Assembly (NCBI GenBank): GCA_024743055.1
Contig: JANSXH010000017.1
Coordinates: 1-64,000 of the forward strand
DNA: 64,000 nt
From: Pseudomonadota bacterium
GTDB taxonomy: Bacteria > Pseudomonadota > Alphaproteobacteria > Sneathiellales > Sneathiellaceae
Reading direction: 5' to 3'
Shown: positions 52,179-64,000 of the stretch, piece after piece
How the letters are laid out: each line of letters begins with the position of its first letter
Position numbering within the stretch: position 1 is the first letter of the stretch
Translations under genes and position numbers: made by a program
Notes under the pieces: generated by a model
What the model saw: the letters and a program-made list of their open reading frames with translations, nothing else
Told to the model about the DNA's origin: nothing
Database searches by the model: none

Positions 52179-53600
52179 ATGAAAAATAAGAAAAACGGCC
52201 TCCTCGACCTTGAGGACAATATCCGATGTGACTTTGAATATCTCAATTTCCCTCCCGACAATTGGGTCAAGCCAAAACTCTTGGAGAACGGAAGTCCGGT
52301 AACCGATGTGACAATCGTCGGCGGTGGTATGTGTGGCATGGCCGCTTCCTTTGGGCTGAAGCGAGAGGGTATTCGCAATATTCGAATATTTGACCGGCAG
52401 CCCGAGAGTTTCGAGGGACCGTGGTTAACAACAGCCCGTATGAAGACCCTACGCTCTCCAAAGCATCTCACGGGTCCGAACATGGGATTGCCAAACCTGA
52501 CCTTTCAAGCCTGGTATCGGGCCCAATGGGATACAGATAGCTGGGAGGCTCTTGGGCATATTCCGCGCGAAATGTGGATGGAATATCTGCGATGGTATCG
52601 GCAAGTCCTTGAAATTCCAGTAGAGAATGGTGTTGCGCTGGAGAGGATTGAACCTGAAGGGGATATCCTTAAACTGTTCTTGCTGAAAAATGGCCAAAAG
52701 GAGGAACATTTCACCCGGAAATTGGTCCTCGCGACTGGAAGGGCGGCATTCGGCGGGACCCGTTTGCCCGCAGCCTTTCAGGATCTTCCAGAAAACCTTT
52801 ATGCCCATACCGAAGACAAGATCGATTTTGAGGCATTGAAGGGAAAGAAAGTTTTCGTCATTGGTGGAGCCGCATCGGCTGTGGACTCGGCGGCAGTTGC
52901 CCTGGAGACAGGAGCTGCCGAGGTCCATTTAATGGTGCGGGCGAAGGAAATCCCGCGCCTCAACAAGTTCAAAAGTACAGTTTATTCAGGCTTCTTTCGG
53001 GGCTTTAAAAATCTGGATGAGGAGACAAGATGGCGGCTTCTGCATCATGGTTTTGGTTGTAAAATTGCCGCTCCTCGCGCCTCAATGTTGCGGCTAAAGC
53101 AATATGAGAATTTCCATATTCATCTCGACAGTCCCATTGCAAAGGCGAGAGCGGACGGAGATAGCTTGGAGCTGTCAACGGGGACCCAGAGCTATCAGGG
53201 TGACTTTGTCATTCTTGGAACTGGTTATGCCATCAATATTGCGGATCAACCGGAATTAGCCCCTTTTTCCAAGGATGTATTGTTATGGCGGGATCGGTTT
53301 ACGCCCCCTGCCGATATTGCCGATGAGGAACTAGGTAATTTTCCTTTTCTTGGTCCTGGTTTTGAACTTTTGGAAAAAACACCGGGTCAGGCTTCATATT
53401 TAGATCGCATACATCTTTTCAATGCGGCGACCACAATGACTCATTCTGCCGTCAGCAGTGATATCCCCGGGGTAAATATCGGGGCAGAAAGACTGATTGA
53501 TACCTTGGCTAAGAAATTCTTCGCCGAGGCCGCGCCGGAACATCTTCAAGATTTCTACGATTACGATGAACCAGAACTGCTCGGCGATGAATGGAACTAG
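52179..53600 (+). CDS. FAD/NAD(P)-dependent oxidoreductase, flavin monooxygenase-like
   Basis: A 473-residue flavoprotein. The FAD-binding GxGxxG-type motif is TIVGGGMCGMAASFG near residue 45, and the NADP motif is VIGGAASAVDSAAVAL near residue 230. LATGRAAFGGTRLP and FVILGTGYAIN resemble the ATG-containing links of flavin monooxygenases. It ends in an acidic tail and overlaps the convergent TauE-like gene by four bases. Its neighbour is the sulfonate locus, but a role there is unproven. The substrate is unknown. Confidence 0.83.
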   Translation: MKNKKNGLLDLEDNIRCDFEYLNFPPDNWVKPKLLENGSPVTDVTIVGGGMCGMAASFGLKREGIRNIRIFDRQPESFEGPWLTTARMKTLRSPKHLTGPNMGLPNLTFQAWYRAQWDTDSWEALGHIPREMWMEYLRWYRQVLEIPVENGVALERIEPEGDILKLFLLKNGQKEEHFTRKLVLATGRAAFGGTRLPAAFQDLPENLYAHTEDKIDFEALKGKKVFVIGGAASAVDSAAVALETGAAEVHLMVRAKEIPRLNKFKSTVYSGFFRGFKNLDEETRWRLLHHGFGCKIAAPRASMLRLKQYENFHIHLDSPIAKARADGDSLELSTGTQSYQGDFVILGTGYAINIADQPELAPFSKDVLLWRDRFTPPADIADEELGNFPFLGPGFELLEKTPGQASYLDRIHLFNAATTMTHSAVSSDIPGVNIGAERLIDTLAKKFFAEAAPEHLQDFYDYDEPELLGDEWN

Positions 53601-54316
53601 CGGATCAGGCCATAGATGCCGGCGCAGAGAAGGATGCCAAGAGCGATCCGGCGATAAAGCGTTTCGTTGGCTTTTCGAAACAGTCTGGATCCGATCCAGG
53701 CTGAGAAAATGAAAAGGGGCAGGAGCCAAAGGGTTGTCGTTGTCTCTGAGATCGTGATGAGGCCTGACACTGTCATGATGGCGATAAGGGCCAGTAACGT
53801 AATAGCAAAATAACCGGTGAAATTGGCCCGGTTAATGGCGGCGCTATCCAGACTGGACAACAGATACAGCATGACAGGCGGATTTCCGAGGCTGGTGAGA
53901 GCCATAAGAATGCCGGAAATGGCACCAACTCCTAATGTAACAGGCAAAGGCTTCCGGCCCTGATATCGCCATCCAGTCAGCAGGACCAGAGAGAAAACAG
54001 TGACCAGTGCGGCAATAGCATACCCGATGATCTTCGGATCTGTTGTTACCAGCAGCCAACTGCCGATAGGCATAAAAAGGGCAGCAACCGCGCCCATGGG
54101 CAGGATAACCTTCCAGTTGATATCCCGAAACACGCTCGGCATGAGCTGAGCGGTTACTACAAGTTCCATCATGATAATAATGGCGACTGTTTGAACCGGG
54201 CCGAACAAGTAGACAAAGAAAGGCGCCATCAGCATGCCTGATCCCATTCCGGCAAAGCCTCGCATCAAGCCAGCGGCGGCTGAGATAGCAATTGCAATGA
54301 TTAGCGCCGTCGTCAT
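53597..54316 (-). CDS. TauE/SafE (TSUP) family permease, probable sulfite exporter
   Basis: A 239-residue membrane protein with about eight helices and the TSUP-family pattern GLMRGFAGMGSGMLMAP near the N-terminus and GAISGILMALTSLGNPPVML in the second half. TauE, SafE and related carriers export sulfite or sulfoacetate. The start at 54316 has AGAGG upstream. It lies just downstream of pta-xsc, in the same direction, so it likely removes sulfite released by Xsc. Export of another anion remains possible. Confidence 0.85.
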   Translation of the reverse strand: MTTALIIAIAISAAAGLMRGFAGMGSGMLMAPFFVYLFGPVQTVAIIIMMELVVTAQLMPSVFRDINWKVILPMGAVAALFMPIGSWLLVTTDPKIIGYAIAALVTVFSLVLLTGWRYQGRKPLPVTLGVGAISGILMALTSLGNPPVMLYLLSSLDSAAINRANFTGYFAITLLALIAIMTVSGLITISETTTTLWLLPLFIFSAWIGSRLFRKANETLYRRIALGILLCAGIYGLIR

Positions 54317-54391
54317 GTTGACCTCTGAATAGTGCCTTGGCCCCAAAGAATTACAGCTTGGTTAAACCGCTGAATCATTGGTGACAGGGAA

Positions 54392-55384
54392 TTACTTGGC
54401 CTGAACTGCCGTGACCGCAATCATGGAGAAGACATCTTCTGCTGAACAACCGCGAGAAAGATCGTTTGCAGGATGGGCAAGCCCCTGAAGAATAGGCCCA
54501 AGGGCCGTCGCTCCGCCAATGCGTTGCGCGATTTTGTAGCCGATATTTGCAGCTTCCAGATTGGGAAACACAAGAATATTGGCATCCCCTTTTAATGGTG
54601 AGTCGGGAGCTTTGCTCGCACCGACCGATGGAACAAAGGCGGCGTCAAATTGGATTTCACCAAATAGGGTGAGATCGGGATGGAGGCCCCTGGCGATTTC
54701 TGTTGCTTCTTTTACGCGAGTAACACGAGGATGGCTTGCGCTCCCTGCCGTAGAAAAAGAGAGCATGGCCACTTTTGGTGTACCGCCAACAAGAGATTCA
54801 AAGGAACTGGCCGAAGAAATCGCAATTGCGGCCAACTGCTCTGGGGTAGGTTCAACGACAAGGCCGCAGTCGGCAAAGACAACAGTCCCCTTTCGCATGT
54901 GATGGGGCTGATCCAGGATCATGAGGAAGCAGCTCGAAACTGTTTTTTCGCCGTCGGCACGCCCAATGATTTGCAAGGCGGCACGGACAGTATCTGCAGT
55001 CGTCGTAATGGCGCCGGCAAGTGAGCCGTCTGCATCGCCGAGGCGCACCATCATGGCACCAAAGTTCAACGGATTGGCTATGGCCGCTCGGGCGGCCTCT
55101 AAATCGACCCCCTTATGGCGGCGTAATGCCTCATAGCTTTCAGCGTATGTACCAGCACGCTCCGATGTAGAGGGATCAATAATCTGAAATTCTGAGGCAG
55201 TGGCTCCGGCCTGTTCAAGCAATGAAGATACTTTATCCGAATTGCCGAGTAGAATTGGTGTTGCGATGCCTTCTTTCTTGGCACGGATAGCTCCATCAAC
55301 TATGCGCGGATCTTCCCCTTCCGGCAGTACGATGTGCTTGGGGTTGGCGCGAGCCCGTTCTAGAATATCGTCAAGTGCTGACAT
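54392..55384 (-). CDS. pta: phosphate acetyltransferase
   Basis: Pta converts acetyl phosphate and CoA to acetyl-CoA. The 330-residue short form (no N-terminal DRTGG domain) has IVLPEGEDPRIVDGAIRAKK, the conserved NPLNFGAMMVRLGDADG and MLSFSTAGSA. The start at 55384 (MSALDDILERARANPKHI) has GGAAG upstream. It follows xsc by 73 bases, across a strong hairpin. This pairing is known in sulfonate degraders, where Pta uses the acetyl phosphate made by Xsc. Confidence 0.94.
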   Translation of the reverse strand: MSALDDILERARANPKHIVLPEGEDPRIVDGAIRAKKEGIATPILLGNSDKVSSLLEQAGATASEFQIIDPSTSERAGTYAESYEALRRHKGVDLEAARAAIANPLNFGAMMVRLGDADGSLAGAITTTADTVRAALQIIGRADGEKTVSSCFLMILDQPHHMRKGTVVFADCGLVVEPTPEQLAAIAISSASSFESLVGGTPKVAMLSFSTAGSASHPRVTRVKEATEIARGLHPDLTLFGEIQFDAAFVPSVGASKAPDSPLKGDANILVFPNLEAANIGYKIAQRIGGATALGPILQGLAHPANDLSRGCSAEDVFSMIAVTAVQAK

Positions 55385-55419
55385 GGTGGGGACTTCCGAT
55401 TGTCGATGCAGAAAAGGTA

Positions 55420-55446
55420 TCCCGGCCCGTGAGAAACGGGCCGGGA
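55420..55446 (-). terminator. intercistronic hairpin between xsc and pta
   Basis: A perfect 11-bp GC-rich stem (55420-55430 with 55436-55446) with loop GAGAA lies 12 bases after the xsc stop. On the minus strand it is followed by only TACCTTTTC, so it would be a weak or partial terminator, or a 3'-end stabiliser for xsc mRNA. Confidence 0.7.
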
Positions 55447-55457
55447 CAGTCGGTTCG

Positions 55458-57236
55458 TTAGCCAGCCCGTTGTGGCCGCATATCGTCTTTGCTGATACCG
55501 GCAACTGAAACAGGGGCTTTCATCGCATCGCGACGGAAAGGTTCTCCCAGTTCCTGGTTCAGGACAACTTCAATGAAGGTTGTAACGTTATCCTCCATCT
55601 GCTCCTTGACGGCCGTCCGCAGGGTATCGGTGAGCTGGTCCATGGTTGTGACCTGAACGCCTTTAAGGCCACAGCCTTCAGCGATCTTGGCATATTCCAC
55701 ACCCAGATTGAGCTCGGTGCCGACGAAGTTGTCGCTGTACCATAGGGTCGTATTACGTTTTTCTGCGCCCCACTGGTAGTTTCGGAAAATCACCATAGTG
55801 ATGGGAGGCCAGTCATTGCGACCGCAAGCTGTCATCTCGTTCATAGAGATGCCGAAGGCACCGTCACCAGCAAAGCCGATCACTGGTGTATCCGGGCAGC
55901 CGATCTTGGCACCGAGGATCGACGGGAAGCCATATCCGCAAGGACCGAACAGGCCCGGTGCCAGATATTTCCGGCCTGCTTCAAAGGTCGGATAGGCATT
56001 ACCGATGGCGCAGTTGTTACCAATGTCCGAAGAGATAATGGCGTCCTTCGGCATTGCTGACTGAATCGCTCTCCAGGCCATCCGCGGAGACATATGTTTC
56101 GGCTGGCGATTGCGAGAGCGTTCATTCCAGTTGGTGCCCGGATCGTCATCCTCATGATCCATTGATGACAGAGCTTGCAACCAGCGGGATTTGGTTTCCG
56201 CGATCAGTTCCTTACGCTCCTTACGACCTTTGTCGCCAGCACCACTTGAAAGTTGAGCCAATAGCTGTTCAGCCACCATCTTAGCATCACCCTGAATGGC
56301 AACGGTGACAGGCTTGGTCAGGCCAATGCGATCGGAGTTGATATCCACTTGAATGACCTTGGCATCTTTCGGCCAGTAATCGATCCCATAACCTGGAAGG
56401 GTCGAGAAGGGATTGAGACGGGTTCCAAGTGCCAATACAACGTCAGCTTTGGCAATCAGTTCCATTCCTGCTTTGGAGCCGTTATAGCCCAAAGGGCCGG
56501 CAAACAGGGGATGAGAGCCCGGGAAGGCATCGTTATGCTGATATCCACAGCAGACAGGTGCATCCAGCTTTTCAGCCAAGGCTGCACTTGCAGGAATGGC
56601 ATTCGATAAGACAACACCGGCACCATTGAGGATGACCGGGAATTCCGCTTCTGAGAGCAGTTTCGCGGCGTCAGCGACAGCTTGTGTGCCACCTGCCGGG
56701 CGTTCCAGCACGACCATCTGCGGCAACTCGATATCAATGACTTGGGTCCAGAAGTCGCGGGGGACGTTGATCTGGGCCGGGCCGGAACCGCGCCAGGCTT
56801 TTTCGATGACCCGGTTGAGAACCTCTGCGATCCGTGTCGGATCGCGGACTTCTTCCTGGTAGCAGACCATGTCTTCAAACAAAGCCATTTGCTCAATTTC
56901 CTGAAAGCCACCCTGACCGATGGTCTTGTTGGCGGCCTGCGGGGTGACCAGCAGCATCGGTGTGTGGTTCCAGTAGGCGGTTTTAACTGGCGTCACGAAG
57001 TTGGTGATACCGGGTCCGTTCTGGGCGATGGCCATGGACATCTTGCCGGTGGCGCGGGTGTATCCGTCGGCTGACATGCCGGCGTTGGTTTCATGGGCGC
57101 AATCCCAGAACTTAATCCCGGCAGCGGGAAACAGGTCGGAGATCGGCATCATGGCGGATCCGATAATCCCAAATGCATGCTCTATACCATGCATCTGAAG
57201 AACTTTGATGAACGCCTCTTCAGTCGTCATTTTCAT
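55458..57236 (-). CDS. xsc: sulfoacetaldehyde acetyltransferase
   Basis: Xsc is a thiamine-diphosphate enzyme that uses phosphate to split sulfoacetaldehyde into acetyl phosphate and sulfite. The 592-residue protein carries the Xsc-diagnostic stretch HETNAGMSADGYTRATGKMS and NKTIGQGGFQEIEQM, and the ThDP motif GFAGDGAFGISMNEMT in the C-terminal domain. Its length is normal for Xsc and distinguishes it from acetolactate synthases. GAGGG lies nine bases before the ATG. It is the middle gene of iseJ-xsc-pta. Confidence 0.96.
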   Translation of the reverse strand: MKMTTEEAFIKVLQMHGIEHAFGIIGSAMMPISDLFPAAGIKFWDCAHETNAGMSADGYTRATGKMSMAIAQNGPGITNFVTPVKTAYWNHTPMLLVTPQAANKTIGQGGFQEIEQMALFEDMVCYQEEVRDPTRIAEVLNRVIEKAWRGSGPAQINVPRDFWTQVIDIELPQMVVLERPAGGTQAVADAAKLLSEAEFPVILNGAGVVLSNAIPASAALAEKLDAPVCCGYQHNDAFPGSHPLFAGPLGYNGSKAGMELIAKADVVLALGTRLNPFSTLPGYGIDYWPKDAKVIQVDINSDRIGLTKPVTVAIQGDAKMVAEQLLAQLSSGAGDKGRKERKELIAETKSRWLQALSSMDHEDDDPGTNWNERSRNRQPKHMSPRMAWRAIQSAMPKDAIISSDIGNNCAIGNAYPTFEAGRKYLAPGLFGPCGYGFPSILGAKIGCPDTPVIGFAGDGAFGISMNEMTACGRNDWPPITMVIFRNYQWGAEKRNTTLWYSDNFVGTELNLGVEYAKIAEGCGLKGVQVTTMDQLTDTLRTAVKEQMEDNVTTFIEVVLNQELGEPFRRDAMKAPVSVAGISKDDMRPQRAG

Positions 57237-57252
57237 AATGTTATACCCTCAT

Positions 57253-58911
57253 TTATCCGACGGCAGAATTCTGCGGGTCGGGATTTGACAGATTGGCCTG
57301 AGCCGGTTTTCCCAGTCGATCTTGTAAAATAATTTCGCTGGCTTTCTCCCCGATCATAATAGCGGGAGCATTGGTGTTACCGGAGACAATCTCCGGCATA
57401 ATCGAACAGTCGGCAATACGGAGACCTTCAATGTCCCGTACCTTCAAACGCGGATCAACGACGGCGAGGGGATCGATTCCCATCTTACAGGTGCCCGTCG
57501 GGTGATAGATCGTTGTGGATGAATTTCGTGCCCAATCCAGAATTTCCTCGTCAGTGACTACATCAGGCCCAGGATTCCGCTCTCCGGAGATCTTGCTGGC
57601 AAGCGGCGGTTGCTCTGCGATGTTACGGGCAATTTTTATACCGTCGACAATCGTTCTGCAATCCGTTTCCGTCGCCAGATAGTTGGGATGGATCGCCGGA
57701 TAGTCCCGGGAGTTGCCGGATTTGAGAAGAATCTCCCCACGGCTTTCCGGGCGCAGCTGACAGACGGACATGGTAAAGGCCGAGAAGGGATGAACTCCTT
57801 CCCCCGGACTGTCCGCAGACCAGGGCTGAATGTGAAACTGGATATCCGGGACTTCAAGGTCCGGATGGGTTTTCAGGAACCCGGTCGCGAGGCTGGCGGC
57901 CATGGTCATCGGCCCGGCCCGGAACATCAGATATTTCAAAGCGATTCGCGCCTGGTTATAAAGGCTGCGCACTTCGTCATTTAACGTTGGCTCATTACAG
58001 TTATAGACCAGGCGTGCCTGCAGATGATCCTGAAGGTTCTTGCCGACACCCGGCGAATCGGACACAACTTCAATCCCGTTGTCCCGCAGATGAGTCGCAT
58101 CCCCGATCCCCGACAGCATCAGGAGTTGCGGGGAACCAATGGCGCCGGAAGAGAGAATCACCTCAGAGGAGGCATGGGCAATGACTTCCTTGCCCTGCTT
58201 GTTCTCAAACGCCACGCCGGTCGCCTTATTGCCGTCAAATACGACCCGCTTGGCATGGGCATGGGTGACAATCTGCAAATTCGGGCGGCTTCTTGCAGGG
58301 TTGAGATAGGCAACCGCGGCACTGCAGCGACGGCCATTGCGGGTCGTCAGCTGAAAATAGCCGACCCCTTCCTGCGTTGCGCCGTTATAGTCATCGTTAT
58401 AGGTATAGCCGGCAGTCTGCGCCGCCGCGACCCAGGCATCACAAATCGGGCGCTTGAGGCGCATGTTAGAGACATTAAGGGGACCACCAACCCCATGATA
58501 GTCGTCGGCACCGCGCTCCTGATTCTCTGAATTCTTGAAATGGGGCAGAACATCGTCCCAACTCCAGCCGGTATTTCCCATTTGCCGCCAGCGATCATAA
58601 TCCTGCGGTTGGCCGCGAACATAGAGCAATCCGTTCAAGGAAGAAGAGCCGCCAAGGACCTTTCCACGCGGCCAGCCGAGGCTTCTGCCGTTTAGTCCTG
58701 GATCCGGCTCTGTCTCATAACACCAATCCACATTCGGATTGTTCATTGTCTTGAAATAGCCAACAGGGATGTGAATCCAAGGGTTTAGGTCACGCCCGCC
58801 GGCTTCCAGAAGAATTACCTTGATGGAGGGATCGGCACTCAGGCGGTTTGCCAGAACACAGCCGGCAGACCCGGCGCCAACAACGACGTAATCGGCTTCC
58901 AACTTTTCCAT
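57253..58911 (-). CDS. iseJ: GMC-family flavoprotein, probable isethionate dehydrogenase
   Basis: A 552-residue choline-dehydrogenase-like flavoprotein. The FAD motif is VVVGAGSAGCVLANRLS with the acidic LLEAGG, GMC signature 1 is GKVLGGSSSLNGLLYVRG, signature 2 is SSGAIGSPQLLMLSGIG, and the C-terminal active site is YHPTGTCKMG and SGNTNAPAIMIGEKAS. Its place directly before xsc and divergent from an iseKLM-type TRAP set matches the known isethionate loci, in which IseJ oxidises isethionate to sulfoacetaldehyde. Family members also oxidise choline and other alcohols, so substrate is inferred from context. GGGAGGA lies upstream. Confidence 0.85.
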   Translation of the reverse strand: MEKLEADYVVVGAGSAGCVLANRLSADPSIKVILLEAGGRDLNPWIHIPVGYFKTMNNPNVDWCYETEPDPGLNGRSLGWPRGKVLGGSSSLNGLLYVRGQPQDYDRWRQMGNTGWSWDDVLPHFKNSENQERGADDYHGVGGPLNVSNMRLKRPICDAWVAAAQTAGYTYNDDYNGATQEGVGYFQLTTRNGRRCSAAVAYLNPARSRPNLQIVTHAHAKRVVFDGNKATGVAFENKQGKEVIAHASSEVILSSGAIGSPQLLMLSGIGDATHLRDNGIEVVSDSPGVGKNLQDHLQARLVYNCNEPTLNDEVRSLYNQARIALKYLMFRAGPMTMAASLATGFLKTHPDLEVPDIQFHIQPWSADSPGEGVHPFSAFTMSVCQLRPESRGEILLKSGNSRDYPAIHPNYLATETDCRTIVDGIKIARNIAEQPPLASKISGERNPGPDVVTDEEILDWARNSSTTIYHPTGTCKMGIDPLAVVDPRLKVRDIEGLRIADCSIMPEIVSGNTNAPAIMIGEKASEIILQDRLGKPAQANLSNPDPQNSAVG

Positions 58912-59008
58912 GGCTTCAGATTCCTCCCTGACGCAGTTAAATGAGCGATTGCGAGCTAATGAATTCGAATGTCTTACAGAGATTTCTAATAATTTCGCTT
59001 GCTTAATT

Positions 59009-59035
59009 TAGTATACTATGTTTTTTTGATACTAC
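59009..59035. promoter_or_regulatory. candidate IseR operator in the iseJ-iseK divergent region
   Basis: A perfect 10-base palindrome TAGTATACTA (59009-59018) is followed 16 bases later by a second ATACTA (59029-59034). IclR-family regulators bind short palindromes in divergent promoter regions, so this is a candidate site for the IclR protein at 62548. The region is very AT-rich and chance is possible. Confidence 0.35.
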
Positions 59036-59149
59036 AAGTCTCATTTTTGATGCTTACTGAAATATTCTTTATGGGGTCGAATATGAAGGTGAGGAGACGA
59101 ATGAACTTCAAATGGAATGGAAATTGATAACGTTCATTGGGAGGAAAGA

Positions 59150-60382
59150 ATGACACTATCAAGCAAGCTGAGCCGTATCTCACGGCGTGATCTCTTTAAA
59201 CTGACAAGCCAGTTCGGCATCAGTTCCACACTTATGGCGGCAGGCGGATTTGCCGGTCTGATGGGAACATCTTCTCTGGCGCAGGCTGTCGAATCAACTT
59301 ACGAAAAGCGTTATAAGAAAGAGCCAAAGCATACTTTAAAGTTTGGGGCTTCCGGTTTTAACGCCCGCAACCTGCTGATTGAGCGGGCAGGGTGTCTGGA
59401 ATTTGCCCGCGACCTTGAGGAAAGAACTGAAGGCGAAATCCGGGTCGAGTTTATCGGCGATAACCAGATTTGCGGACAGCTTTCCTGCGTTGAAAAAACA
59501 CAGTTGGGTATTGTTGACATCTATGCGGCGTCAACCCAGAACTCCGCTGGTGGCGCACCGTATCTGAATGTTCTTGATTATGCCTACATGTTCCCTGGAC
59601 GGGCGTCGCAGTATCACTTCCTGTACAGCCCAGAAAGTCAGAAGGTCCTGCGTGATCCTCTGGAAAAACGCCATGGTCTCAAGTTCCTGTTCTCACATTG
59701 CGAACTTCGCGGCATTCAGCTCGGCCTGAAATGGCAGGACCAGCCGACAGTGACCAAGCTGGAAACCCTGTTCGGCACGAAAAACCGTGTGACGGGAACC
59801 CAACTGGGTCGTATCGCCATGCAGCTGCTGAACCTCAACCCGGTTCCGGTTGCCTGGGAAGAAACTCTGGACGGATTGAAGCAGGGCCTGATTGATGGGG
59901 CAGAGACATGGGCGTCGGCAGTGGCTTACGCTAATATGTCACCGGTTGTTTCCCAGTCTGTTGACCTGAAATTCTTCTGCGGCACGGAGCACACCTCCAT
60001 GTCTGCCAAGGTCTTTGATGCCATGGAGCCGCATCTGCAGGATGCAATCATGGAATCAGCCTATCTTGCTCAGGTTCATGTCCAGGCGGCCAACGAGGCT
60101 GCACTGGTCAAGACTGTTGGGTTCTCTGATCCGCAGCTGCCGGACACTTTGTTTGTTGAAAATGATGTGCGTCCTGCCTTCCTGCCAGAAGATCAGATCA
60201 AAATGGCAGAGGAAATGTGCTCACCAGAGTATAATCCTGAGCCATGGGCCGAATGGCGTGAGCGGTTGAACGCCTGGTCTGGTGGTCTCGATACCTATCA
60301 GGAAATCGCCAATGTTGCCCGGCAGGTTCCGGCGGACATGCGTCCGGAAAATGTTGAGCCACGTCGTTGGTGGCGCTCCTAA
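59150..60382 (+). CDS. iseK: TRAP transporter substrate-binding protein (DctP family), probable isethionate binding
   Basis: A 410-residue periplasmic binding protein of a tripartite ATP-independent transporter. The signal region has the twin-arginine motif SRRDLFK (Arg12, Arg13) before a hydrophobic stretch ending in SLAQA, so export by Tat is likely. KHTLKFGASGFN starts the mature domain; VPVAWEETLDGLKQGLIDGA is the DctP signature with its ligand-binding region. The start at 59150 is fixed by a GGGAGGAAAGA ribosome site. It leads the iseKLM-iseR operon, and strong hairpins follow it. Confidence 0.87.
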   Translation: MTLSSKLSRISRRDLFKLTSQFGISSTLMAAGGFAGLMGTSSLAQAVESTYEKRYKKEPKHTLKFGASGFNARNLLIERAGCLEFARDLEERTEGEIRVEFIGDNQICGQLSCVEKTQLGIVDIYAASTQNSAGGAPYLNVLDYAYMFPGRASQYHFLYSPESQKVLRDPLEKRHGLKFLFSHCELRGIQLGLKWQDQPTVTKLETLFGTKNRVTGTQLGRIAMQLLNLNPVPVAWEETLDGLKQGLIDGAETWASAVAYANMSPVVSQSVDLKFFCGTEHTSMSAKVFDAMEPHLQDAIMESAYLAQVHVQAANEAALVKTVGFSDPQLPDTLFVENDVRPAFLPEDQIKMAEEMCSPEYNPEPWAEWRERLNAWSGGLDTYQEIANVARQVPADMRPENVEPRRWWRS

Positions 60383-60405
60383 AAGTCTGAGTTGAGTACC
60401 CTGCA

Positions 60406-60431
60406 ACGCGGCACATTGATTTGTGCCGCGT
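60406..60431 (+). terminator. first hairpin after iseK
   Basis: A perfect 10-bp stem (60406-60415 with 60422-60431), ACGCGGCACA pairing with TGTGCCGCGT around a 6-base loop. No T-run follows, so it more likely protects the iseK mRNA 3' end or acts as a partial terminator than fully stopping transcription. Confidence 0.75.
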
Positions 60432-60462
60432 ACTTCCGGAACAAAAAAATAAACCGGAAGTA
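60431..60462 (+). terminator. second hairpin between iseK and iseL
   Basis: A 9-bp stem TACTTCCGG (60431-60439) with CCGGAAGTA (60454-60462) around an A-rich loop, directly after the first hairpin. The two share one base, so they probably form alternative or stacked structures. Confidence 0.65.
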
Positions 60463-60492
60463 TCCTGACATATGCTCTGAGGGAGGAAGCAG

Positions 60493-61161
60493 ATGCAATC
60501 TTTGATATCTGAGGCTGGCGCACTCGCTGCCGCTCTATTTACATTTGATTCATGGGAGATTGGCAATGCGCTGAGGACAGACGGCGCTTGGCTCTTTGGC
60601 TTTTTTGCCACCGTGATTGGTGCTGGTATTGTTCTGGTAATTTACCGTTTTGTGCCGTTCATCGACAAACACCTGGAACGGACAATCATGGTTTGGTCCT
60701 ATCTGGTGATCTCCGCCATTATCTTTGTCGAGGTGTTCCGACGGTTTGTTCTGAATGAACAGGCGCCCTGGTCGACGACATTGCCGCCGTTCCTGTTTCT
60801 GATCATGACCTGGTTCGGCTGCGCCTATAATGTTCGCCTCCGGACCCATCTGTCATTCAGTGAGTTTAGAACCAACATGCCCCGCAAAGGGCAGATGGCG
60901 TGCCTCATCCTTGATGCCGTCCTTTGGCTTGCATTCTGTGAGATTGTTATTGTTACCGGCGCGCGGGTGACGGCGAACTCAGCGGCCAACTTCCAGATCC
61001 TGCTCGGGACGGACAATGTCATGCAATGGTGGTTCCTGATCACCGTGCCCATTGCCTTCTTGCTGATGGCTGCTCGGGTTCTGGAGAACCTGATCGAAGA
61101 TATTGGCAAATATCGTGACGGCAAACCGATCATCGAACAAGCCGTTATTGGAGGGGAGTAA
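60493..61161 (+). CDS. iseL: TRAP transporter small permease (DctQ family)
   Basis: A 222-residue inner-membrane protein with four to five predicted helices; the DctQ-like domain spans about residues 65-200, with EVFRRFVLNEQAPWSTTLPP and WFGCAYNVRLRTHLSFSEFR as recognisable blocks. A GGGAGGAAGC ribosome site lies upstream. It works with iseK and iseM to import the sulfonate using an ion gradient. It follows iseK after 110 bases and precedes iseM by five. Confidence 0.9.
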   Translation: MQSLISEAGALAAALFTFDSWEIGNALRTDGAWLFGFFATVIGAGIVLVIYRFVPFIDKHLERTIMVWSYLVISAIIFVEVFRRFVLNEQAPWSTTLPPFLFLIMTWFGCAYNVRLRTHLSFSEFRTNMPRKGQMACLILDAVLWLAFCEIVIVTGARVTANSAANFQILLGTDNVMQWWFLITVPIAFLLMAARVLENLIEDIGKYRDGKPIIEQAVIGGE

Positions 61162-61166
61162 TCGAT

Positions 61167-62531
61167 ATGACTGATGGAACTTGGATTACACTCATTTCAA
61201 TTGGTGTCACTATGCTCTTCATGTTGGGCGTTCCTGTCCTGTTGATCATCGGCTATTGGGTGATCGGCTGCAGTTTCGTTCTTGGCATGACCCTCGACAA
61301 TATTGGAACAGCTCTCTCGGACGTGTTTACGGACGGCTTTGCCCTGCTGGCGATGCCGCTCTTTATCCTGACGGGGGACCTGATCAACCGGTCGGGTATC
61401 GCACGAAGACTTTCTGATTTTGCCTACTCCTGTCTCGGGTGGATCAGAGGAGGCCTTGCTATGGCGGCCATTGGAGCATGTGGTCTCTTCGCTGCGATAT
61501 CCGGATCAAACTCGGCGACAACGGCCACTATCGGCTCCATGCTGCATCCGGAAATGGTCAAGGGTGGCTATGATGAACGTTTTTCAGCGGCAACAGCCGC
61601 CGCCGGCGGTACGGTCGGGATCATCATTCCGCCATCGATCATCTTTATCGTGTACGGGTTCTTGATGAACCTGCCGATATCGGATCTGTTCCTGGCCGGG
61701 ATTGTTCCGGGTGCCTTGATGGTGTTCGGCATGCAGTTCGTCTGCTGGATCGTTTGCCGGATGAACGGTTGGGGTCATCTCATTCCTCTGCAACTGACCC
61801 GGATGCTTAAAACCGGCTTTGGCGCCTGGCTTGGCTTTTTTGCCATCGGCCTGGTTCTGTGGGGGATCTATACCGGTAAATTCTCACCGACTGAAGCGGC
61901 CGGGGTGACCGTTGGCTTCTGTATCATCGTCGGTCTGATTTCCTTGCCCCTATACAAGTTGATGGGATCCAAGGATGCGGATCGCCCGCCATCTGAGAAA
62001 TCCTATACGGAAATGCTGGTGGTAGAAGGTTTCAAGATTACCGAGATCCCGGCGATCACCATGCGGTCCGCGCAGATTACCGGTATCCTGGCGCCGCTGA
62101 TTGCCATCTCTGTTGTCATGCAGCAGATCCTGTCGCTTCTGGGTGCTCAGCAGGTTATTGGAGAGTTTGTGACGGGGATGGGCGGATATCACGCGGTTCT
62201 CTTTACCGCGATGGCCATCGTCTTTGTCTCTGGTATGGTGCTTGAGAGTTTGCCGGTGACGATTATCCTGGCGCCGATCCTGGCTCCGATCGCTCATTCG
62301 GTTGGGGTTGATCCGATCCATTTCTCGGTGATTTTCCTGGTGGGAGCGTCTATTGGTTTTGTGACGCCGCCTTATGGGCTTAATCTTTATGTAGCCAGCG
62401 GTGTAACGGGTGTTCCCTATTTCAAACTTCTGCGCTATACGGTTCCATATCTCTTTTCGTTGATAGCGGTTTGGATCCTTGTATCTCTCGTACCTGAGCT
62501 GACAACCCTCCTGTTACCGAATCGAGGTTAA
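61167..62531 (+). CDS. iseM: TRAP transporter large permease (DctM family)
   Basis: A 454-residue permease with about 12 helices. DctM motifs include MPLFILTGDLINRSGIARRL, GCGLFAAISGSNSATTATIG (as ACGLFAAISGSNSATTATIGS), GGTVGIIIPPSIIFIVYG and FSPTEAAGVTVG. The DctQ gene lies five bases upstream. It forms the ion-coupled translocation path of the transporter. Confidence 0.94.
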   Translation: MTDGTWITLISIGVTMLFMLGVPVLLIIGYWVIGCSFVLGMTLDNIGTALSDVFTDGFALLAMPLFILTGDLINRSGIARRLSDFAYSCLGWIRGGLAMAAIGACGLFAAISGSNSATTATIGSMLHPEMVKGGYDERFSAATAAAGGTVGIIIPPSIIFIVYGFLMNLPISDLFLAGIVPGALMVFGMQFVCWIVCRMNGWGHLIPLQLTRMLKTGFGAWLGFFAIGLVLWGIYTGKFSPTEAAGVTVGFCIIVGLISLPLYKLMGSKDADRPPSEKSYTEMLVVEGFKITEIPAITMRSAQITGILAPLIAISVVMQQILSLLGAQQVIGEFVTGMGGYHAVLFTAMAIVFVSGMVLESLPVTIILAPILAPIAHSVGVDPIHFSVIFLVGASIGFVTPPYGLNLYVASGVTGVPYFKLLRYTVPYLFSLIAVWILVSLVPELTTLLLPNRG

Positions 62532-62547
62532 CCAGGAGGACAGGTAA

Positions 62548-63333
62548 GTGAATGTTGCGAAACCAGAGATAACCGAGTCATCACCGCCGAATTTGCGGCT
62601 GATGCTGATTATCGAAGAAGTAGCGAAAGTGGGCGTCCCCGTGACGCCCACTGAAGTCAACGCCAAGCTGGGGTTGCCGAAGCCCACAATCCATCGATTG
62701 TTTGCGACCCTTGAAAGCGAAGGCTTCTTGCAACGGGAAATCGATGGAAGATCCTACAGTGCCGGTCGTCGCCTCAGACGCATGTCGGTCAATGTATTGT
62801 CTTCCCTTCGCGTTCGAACGGCTCGGCTGGCCGTGCTAAATGCCCTGGCAGAGGAAATCGGGGAAACCTGCAACCTCGCTATACCGGATCGGGATGCCAT
62901 GGTGTATCTGGACAGGGTCGAAACCAAATGGCCGCTTCGGATCCAGCTGCCGGTGGGGACCCAGGTGCCGTTTTACTGCACGGCTGCCGGAAAGATGTAT
63001 CTGTCTACTTTGAACGCCGCCCATCTGGATACATATCTCAATGCCATTGACCTGAAGCCGCAGGCGCCTAAGACCATAACGGACAAGCAGAAGCTTCACG
63101 ACGAAATAGCTCAAACGAGAGAACAGGGCTATAGCCGGGATGATGAAGAGTTTATGGAAGGGATGATTGCCCTGGCCGTTGCACTCAATGACGATCAGGG
63201 TCGACTGGTCTCAACACTATCCTTTCATGCTCCAAATCAAAGGCTTTCTCTCAAAGAAGGCCTTACTTTTTTGCCGTCATTGCGAAAAGCCGCAGCGGAG
63301 CTGTCGAAACTTGTGATTGAGGACTATCGCTAG
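62548..63333 (+). CDS. iseR: IclR-family regulator of the sulfonate locus
   Basis: A 261-residue regulator. The N-terminal winged helix (about residues 10-75) has VTPTEVNAKLGLPKPTIHRL; the IclR effector domain follows, with VYLDRVETKWPLRIQLPVGT and the core FYCTAAGKMYLS. IclR proteins are the known regulators (IseR) in some isethionate loci. The GTG start has an AGGACAGGTAA ribosome site and lies 16 bases after iseM, so it is co-transcribed with the transporter and can autoregulate it. The symbol is assigned by context. Confidence 0.85.
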   Translation: MNVAKPEITESSPPNLRLMLIIEEVAKVGVPVTPTEVNAKLGLPKPTIHRLFATLESEGFLQREIDGRSYSAGRRLRRMSVNVLSSLRVRTARLAVLNALAEEIGETCNLAIPDRDAMVYLDRVETKWPLRIQLPVGTQVPFYCTAAGKMYLSTLNAAHLDTYLNAIDLKPQAPKTITDKQKLHDEIAQTREQGYSRDDEEFMEGMIALAVALNDDQGRLVSTLSFHAPNQRLSLKEGLTFLPSLRKAAAELSKLVIEDYR

Positions 63334-63389: not shown

Positions 63390-64000
63390 TTGCGCAATTA
63401 TAATGAGGCGGAGGGCGCAGAAATAACCGACCATCATCCTTCCGGTTGGCCAAGAAATCGATCTGATCTTGATCACCCGCCGGCAGAGACCCGGGATGAT
63501 CCTTTAGCAGGGATTGAAACCGGGGCAGACTTCAAGCCATTTTCACAGCGCAATGATATGTTCATGCGGGCCTGGTGGGATGAGACGATCCATTCCAAGG
63601 ACACGGAGCAGTTCTTCGCCAGCTATCGCATGGATGCCTCTCCGCGGCGAGGGGAGGGCTTCAATCAGCGGGACTTCGCTTTGCGCAATGCATCCTGGAC
63701 TGTTGCCGATGAATATGCCGATCGCAGTCAGGCGCAGGGAAAACGAGAAGGCTTTTCTGCGCCTCTGAAGCCACGTATTGAGAAATATTCTGAGGCCGTT
63801 GAGTTCGACTCTGATGTCCAGGCGACGGCGGAGATCAAGAAAATCGCTAAGATGTTCGGGGCGGATCTGGTTGGGATCGCCAAATATGATCCGCGTTGGA
63901 CCTATTCCGATGTGGTCGATGTCCGCGATATGTCGACAAGGCCCAATGAAATGCCGGAGGTGATCACCCATGTCATCGTGCTTGGGCATGGTATGGATTA
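63390..64000 (+). CDS. reductive dehalogenase-like protein (N-terminal part)
   Basis: An open frame runs to the right edge of the window and is cut there. Recognisable blocks are MRAWWDETIHSKDTEQFFAS, MDASPRRGEGFNQRDFALRN, FGADLVGIAKYDPRWTYSDV and VITHVIVLGHGMDY. The order resembles the N-terminal half of cytosolic, aerobic-type reductive dehalogenases such as BhbA and NpRdhA, which reduce haloaromatics with cobalamin and iron-sulfur clusters. The C-terminal iron-sulfur Cys motifs lie beyond the window. No Tat signal is seen, as in that class. The start is uncertain: a TTG at 63390 gives the longest frame and has no good ribosome site; ATG at 63558 is the next ATG. Confidence 0.7.
   Translation, partial: MRNYNEAEGAEITDHHPSGWPRNRSDLDHPPAETRDDPLAGIETGADFKPFSQRNDMFMRAWWDETIHSKDTEQFFASYRMDASPRRGEGFNQRDFALRNASWTVADEYADRSQAQGKREGFSAPLKPRIEKYSEAVEFDSDVQATAEIKKIAKMFGADLVGIAKYDPRWTYSDVVDVRDMSTRPNEMPEVITHVIVLGHGMD

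Follow-up and report, generated by a model that had tools for sequence, protein, structure and literature searches.

In Ruegeria pomeroyi DSS-3, the isethionate (ise) genes iseR, iseM, iseL, iseK and iseJ carry the consecutive numbers SPO2355-2359 (PMC4334477), and growth of mutants on isethionate is tabulated as an optical density decrease of 101.1% for SPO2357 (iseL) and 104.2% for SPO2358 (iseK) (PMC10130141, Table 1). By gene number, pta and xsc (SPO3560-3561) lie distant from the ise genes. The stretch analysed here, the first 64,000 nucleotides of contig JANSXH010000017.1 from an alphaproteobacterium of the Sneathiellaceae (assembly GCA_024743055.1; hereafter the window), holds the same five core ise genes, with iseKLM and iseR ordered as in R. 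pomeroyi, judged by gene numbering alone, whereas xsc, pta and the gene for a TauE-like permease follow iseJ directly. A second kind of described locus occurs in Paracoccus sp. MA and Caballeronia sp. NK8, in which a GMC-family flavoprotein gene homologous to that of the window (67% and 60% identity, respectively) likewise lies near xsc, pta and an IclR-family gene, with a major facilitator superfamily (MFS) transporter where the window has a tripartite ATP-independent periplasmic (TRAP) system, and, in Paracoccus sp. MA, with an annotated sulfite oxidase close by. We take these MFS-type loci to be of the published IseU type. Since the GMC-xsc pairing is also found with an MFS transporter, the GMC gene goes with xsc and not with the TRAP genes alone.

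We read the locus in the window, with a probability of roughly 0.85, as an Ise/Xsc isethionate pathway with TRAP uptake, control by IseR, and export and/or oxidation of sulfite. The pathway and the type of gene cluster are already known; the operator and the dispersed regulon described below are new predictions.

Gene content and proposed pathway

All eight genes of the locus are open reading frames. On the minus strand lie iseJ (57253-58911; PF00732/PF05199), a GMC flavoprotein and predicted isethionate dehydrogenase; xsc (55458-57236), 16 bp downstream of iseJ, whose product exceeds the curated cut-off for sulfoacetaldehyde acetyltransferase by a wide margin (TIGR03457, 940.8 versus 676.4 bits); pta (54392-55390), encoding phosphate acetyltransferase (TIGR00651, 360.2 versus 311.2 bits); and the gene of a TauE/SafE-family permease (53597-54316; PF01925, 93 bits), a candidate sulfite exporter. 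Diverging from them on the plus strand are iseK (59150-60382; PF03480, DctP), the TRAP substrate-binding protein; iseL (60493-61161; PF04290), the small permease (DctQ); iseM (61167-62531; above the TIGR00786 cut-off), the large permease (DctM); and iseR (62548-63333; PF01614/PF09339), an IclR-family regulator. An earlier note, made from the sequence alone, had proposed this gene order, which the open frames and family scans bear out, and had assigned the locus to isethionate use through IseJ, Xsc and Pta, with uptake by a TRAP system and an IclR protein as regulator, in agreement with the R. pomeroyi gene numbering and mutant phenotypes as far as those sources report them. The iseK start is probably at 59150 and not at 59117, because this ATG is preceded by a ribosome site (GGGAGGAAAGAATG, GGGAGGAAAG) and because the alignments of most homologues begin at residue 8-12 of the longer frame. 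A twin-arginine-like signal, SRRDLFK, is read by eye in IseK. The minus strand has, at 55418-55448 between the xsc and pta genes, a 13-pair hairpin with a T-rich tail, which may lower pta expression relative to xsc.

By analogy with published homologues, isethionate would be taken up by the IseKLM transporter and its hydroxyl group oxidised by IseJ to sulfoacetaldehyde, which Xsc would convert with phosphate to sulfite and acetyl phosphate; Pta would then pass the acetyl group to acetyl-CoA. Sulfite would leave through the TauE-like permease and/or be oxidised to sulfate by a SoeABC-like enzyme encoded on another contig. A single palindromic operator in the iseJ-iseK gap would let IseR control both arms, and another copy of it would place soeABC under the same regulator.

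Conservation of the ise arrangement

We compared the locus with 83 related loci, namely the best 80 of 441 relatives in an IseK alignment scan and three plasmid loci; a Desulfolutivibrio plasmid locus (45% IseK), with no GMC gene listed in its neighbourhood, was kept out of this count. By tblastn, iseL is found in 83/83 loci, iseM and iseJ in 82/83 each, and iseR in 78/83, some of the misses being due to contig ends, though not the missing iseR of L068. In 82/83 loci iseJ and iseK are on opposite strands and no more than 400 bp apart; the exception, L071, lacks iseJ and so contributes no gap to the operator count. The arrangement is not chance, because iseKLM, iseR and iseJ recur together across the 83 loci.

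The carbon-sulfur cleavage genes are linked less often, with xsc inside the locus in 19/83 cases and pta in 11/83. A search with the Xsc of the window nevertheless finds xsc elsewhere in 28 of 29 IseK genomes that have none in the fetched locus; of the 62 named loci in which xsc is not linked, this search covered 30, left out the genome of L064, and included one xsc row without a locus (G418, contig C32).

A conserved palindrome between iseJ and iseK

The gap between the divergent arms carries a 23-bp palindrome, WWWTGAKAC-N5-GTMTCAWWW (core TGAKAC-N5-GTMTCA), which in the window reads TTTTGATAC-TACAA-GTCTCATTT and occupies 59024-59046, with no strand assigned. In the gap set, made up of the window and 82 loci, the symmetrical consensus scores at least 13 of 18 in 79/83 gaps and 11 or 12 in the other four; in the roughly 1.66 million positions that lie outside them, a score of 13 or more occurs only 21 times. 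The information content is 1.40 bits per position within the site versus 0.36 and 0.34 on its flanks, a comparison in which lining up the gaps on the best match itself favours the site. The pattern guessed initially gave no match, and a scan with the consensus promoter gave no more matches than shuffled sequences.

A strict form of the pattern has 15 sites in 17 genomes, as against one site for the reversed pattern used as a control. Ten of the 15 lie in an ise gap. Others lie upstream of soeA in the genome of the window, whose two strict matches are this site and the one in its iseJ-iseK gap; upstream of an unlinked xsc gene (G411); and, in G408, close to genes for an IclR paralogue and a Pta-like protein. 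In the last case the paralogue, 45% identical to IseR, and the Pta-like gene flank the palindrome copy (L136), and no Xsc is found in that genome at E 1e-200.

We predict that the palindrome is the operator of IseR. Its position between the divergent arms, beside the operon of iseR, in the gaps examined, is what points to this regulator. That another regulator of sulfonate genes binds it instead is the less probable view, though one to be taken seriously: the palindrome is missing at some unlinked xsc genes, and in a Pelagibius sp. an IclR paralogue has its own adjoining strict copy. That view fits poorly with the xsc promoters of genomes without detected IseK, none of which passes the matrix test (below). 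The open literature that we searched on IseR, isethionate and IclR regulons yielded no description of an operator for IseR, and neither an IclR motif survey (PMC8222616) nor a regulon survey (PMC5343134) contains sulfonate or taurine terms in its main text.

The putative operator at unlinked xsc and soeA genes

To score other promoters we used an operator matrix trained on the ise gaps only and counted a promoter as passing when its score exceeded the maximum of 1500 first-order shuffles. The matrix passes upstream of 21/30 unlinked xsc genes (21 of 28 IseK genomes), at 142-231 bp and most often near 148 bp upstream, whereas all scores in 60 stretches inside xsc fall below -8. A class-wide set of 35 genomes with Xsc, in which the xsc gene of the window was left out of the count and in which G366, G046, G038, G283, G135 and the second gene of G177 have no locus, adds five further xsc genes from IseK genomes, of which one passes. 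In genomes without detected IseK, 0/26 xsc promoters pass (24 of the class set together with G008 and G001). IseK absence was scored on the top four candidates per genome, for some but not all of the genomes, with the class sample taken to be the same as the Xsc set; the gene of G001 (L113), at 47% identity, may not be Xsc. Pooled, 22/35 versus 0/26 gives a Fisher p of 7e-8.

Of 30 soeA promoters three pass, those of the genome of the window, G421 and G408. Stand-alone soeA sets are found in five genomes, with xsc on a different contig in G405, G421 and G422, no xsc found in G408, and soeA on contig C6 in the genome of the window; the operator passes at 3/5 of these, as against 0/25 where soeA lies close to xsc on one contig. 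This is the pattern expected if the xsc promoter also reads an adjacent soeABC.

On balance we lean, by a modest margin over even odds, towards a dispersed alphaproteobacterial regulon, running from isethionate to sulfate, of which IseR is the master regulator, with the palindrome placed at ise, at unlinked xsc and at stand-alone soeABC. Sharing of the palindrome among dispersed genes would mean that one switch governs uptake, C-S cleavage and sulfite detoxification regardless of linkage, and that the soeABC of C6 is under the control of an ise cassette that went undetected in 24 other members of the family. Several observations weigh against a regulon of this kind. Nine of the 30 unlinked xsc genes lack the operator, with scores below -12, as do four of the five further genes from IseK genomes, and six of the 17 IseK genomes have no strict palindrome match; two strict sites lie near genes that, by eye, are unrelated to the pathway. 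The xsc gene of G331, a genome without detected IseK, scores 9.0 against a shuffle maximum of 10.9 and a 99% point of 3.8, and adjoins an IclR gene 54% like IseR. The genomes are related, so that the Fisher p overstates their independence, and a break in a draft contig could mimic stand-alone soeA genes.

The fate of sulfite

The TauE-like protein belongs to PF01925, and its transport of sulfite is a prediction. Similar genes are scarce in the 83 related loci, which hold two distant matches at 25% identity (L064 and L030); another family (cluster c7) takes their place in nine xsc-linked loci and in L030, and the L023 member of that family is annotated as 'putative sulfate exporter family transporter'. 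The earlier note had found no sulfite dehydrogenase gene, and this stands for the locus itself. It does not hold for the genome, where a search with the molybdoprotein encoded behind xsc-pta in the congener G008 finds a 63% homologue on C6, followed by genes for an Fe-S protein and a membrane anchor, so that three genes stand in a row as in soeABC. The three products are 63%, 65% and 48% identical to those of the three genes behind xsc-pta in G008, and the set is named soeABC here after the position that it holds in relatives, behind xsc. Pfam assignments on this set are generic (molybdopterin oxidoreductase, 4Fe-4S dicluster and DmsC-type anchor), which weighs against a firm assignment. A SoeA homologue is present in 30/30 genomes searched (this genome and 29 others with IseK); in 25 of those 29 it shares a contig with xsc.

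The C6 set is likely a sulfite dehydrogenase, and a SoeABC-like enzyme would then take the sulfite. With such a set in the genome, oxidation to sulfate is likely available and the TauE-like permease an extra route, so that sulfite is probably oxidised and not only exported; the argument that it would be exported for want of a dehydrogenase finds no support, given the C6 genes and the putative operator copy in front of them. Disposal by export through the TauE-like permease alone is in our view improbable. The locus does hold a TauE-family gene and no dehydrogenase, and the C6 set takes its name only from its neighbourhood, but the operator copy and the occurrence of SoeA in every genome searched favour oxidation, with export through the permease as something that may accompany it.

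IseJ as a predicted isethionate enzyme

The GMC protein of the window shares its family with the choline dehydrogenase BetA, including the His470 and Asn512 columns, and lies above the cut-off of the choline dehydrogenase subfamily model NF002550. On the betA equivalog model TIGR01810, however, it scores 551 bits, below the cut-off of 732, whereas a genuine betA elsewhere in the genome (C6:22300) scores 786 bits on the same model. In a tree of 42 GMC rows, for which 31 ise loci were submitted and which has no row from L094 or L204, the window IseJ falls in a set of 24 rows with support 100/99; the set includes most ise-linked rows and the xsc-linked row of Paracoccus, and stands apart from the genome's own BetA. 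Several branches in this tree are long, and the deeper placement is unsure. By neighbourhood as well as by tree, the protein is of the IseJ type, that is, a GMC enzyme encoded beside iseKLM or beside an MFS gene and xsc.

Where IseJ has Gln298 and Arg300, the genome's own BetA has Glu and Tyr, the Glu of its QDHLE motif aligning with that of DHPEG in choline oxidase, which we take to be the choline-binding Glu312. The Gln298/Arg300 pair occurs in the window and in all 30 examined rows beside iseK. It also occurs in three GMC proteins without nearby xsc (one on this genome's own C12, one in S. meliloti and one in Haematobacter), which counts against the pair as a mark of isethionate use.

It is accordingly very hard to credit that the GMC protein is a choline-type alcohol dehydrogenase standing beside xsc by chance, in a locus serving taurine or another source of sulfoacetaldehyde. 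Choline dehydrogenase is its best generic annotation, and a carnitine-type cluster lies about 12 kb further along the contig; yet the protein groups with GMCs beside IseKLM or MFS-xsc, its gene stands divergently next to iseK in 82 of the 83 loci, and true betA is accounted for elsewhere. The earlier note had named clustering of IseJ with choline dehydrogenases as the outcome that would count against isethionate; by the betA score, the genome's own betA and the tree, no such clustering is seen.

Two further groups of GMC genes were noted. A second IseJ subtype, about 57-59% identical to that of the window (L055, L058, L068, L070, L073, L080 and L099), is paired with close IseK homologues and forms a separate ise-linked group in the tree. 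The GMC genes of L201 and L204, 46% and 42% identical to IseJ, adjoin xsc in genomes without detected IseK, and possibly represent another route to sulfoacetaldehyde.

IseK and its substrate

IseK belongs to the DctP superfamily, as does IseP of Oleidesulfovibrio alaskensis (8t9t), a sulfate-reducing bacterium, reported as an isethionate binder (PMC11668362). The resemblance is weak, at 39 bits over 230 residues, which weighs against the isethionate reading, and the AlphaFold model of IseK (predicted local distance difference test, pLDDT, 54.6) is too poor for a fold search. R198 and R224 of IseK align with arginines of the TRAP protein 4ovr, a feature general to such proteins. This distance from a solved isethionate binder, together with the generality of the arginine pair, leaves some room for a system that carries a wider range of short sulfonates, isethionate being only one of them. 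We consider this unlikely in view of the loss of isethionate growth in R. pomeroyi iseKLM mutants, as far as that study reports it (PMC10130141), and of the constant pairing of IseK with IseJ; isethionate is the predicted substrate.

Origin of the cassette and flanking genes

The ise cassette was likely gained laterally. A search for other IseK proteins at E 1e-20, covering 23 further members of the genus and one further member of the family, returned only a 29% match (G007); the genome of the window is 86% complete, so absences are weak evidence. Genes to the left of the cassette are conserved across the genus and keep their order in the three genomes compared (G009, G020 and G022). Where the window has the ise genes, these three have, after the flavoprotein gene, a large frame with no family assigned and ABC transporter genes (Pfam for G022 only). 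The GC content rises from 44-52% in the first 52 kb to about 53-54% in the locus. A mis-binned contig was considered and rejected, the left flank matching 18/24 other family genomes at E 1e-10, some over short stretches.

The cassette ends on its left at that flavoprotein gene (52179-53600), which converges on the TauE-like gene; the flavoprotein gene belongs to the genus backbone and was rejected as a member of the system, with no match of at least 45% identity over 40% of its length in the 83 loci. To the right, 57 bp behind iseR and on the same strand, a gene runs from 63390-64000 of the window into L009 391-1653, scoring 176 bits on TIGR02486 (cut-off 160) and containing 4Fe-4S domains; this reductive-dehalogenase-like gene was likewise rejected, no match of at least 40% identity over 40% of its length being found in the 83 loci. 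Beyond it, L009 2505-11285 holds a second TRAP system beside genes for 3-hydroxyanthranilate dioxygenase, aspartate dehydrogenase and a molybdenum hydroxylase, and the carnitine-type cluster (L009 12381-16032) encodes a carnitine 3-dehydrogenase that exceeds the cut-off of its model, together with two proteins that fall below theirs, one gamma-butyrobetaine-dioxygenase-like and the other a keto-acid cleavage enzyme.

Implications for sulfonate metabolism

In the sea, isethionate and other C2 sulfonates serve as sources of carbon and sulfur, and the locus confirms a known pathway in another lineage. If the operator prediction is true, sequence alone would suffice to link unlinked xsc and soeABC genes to isethionate use, and, as to how cells cope with sulfite, the operator would predict that its oxidation is induced by the substrate.

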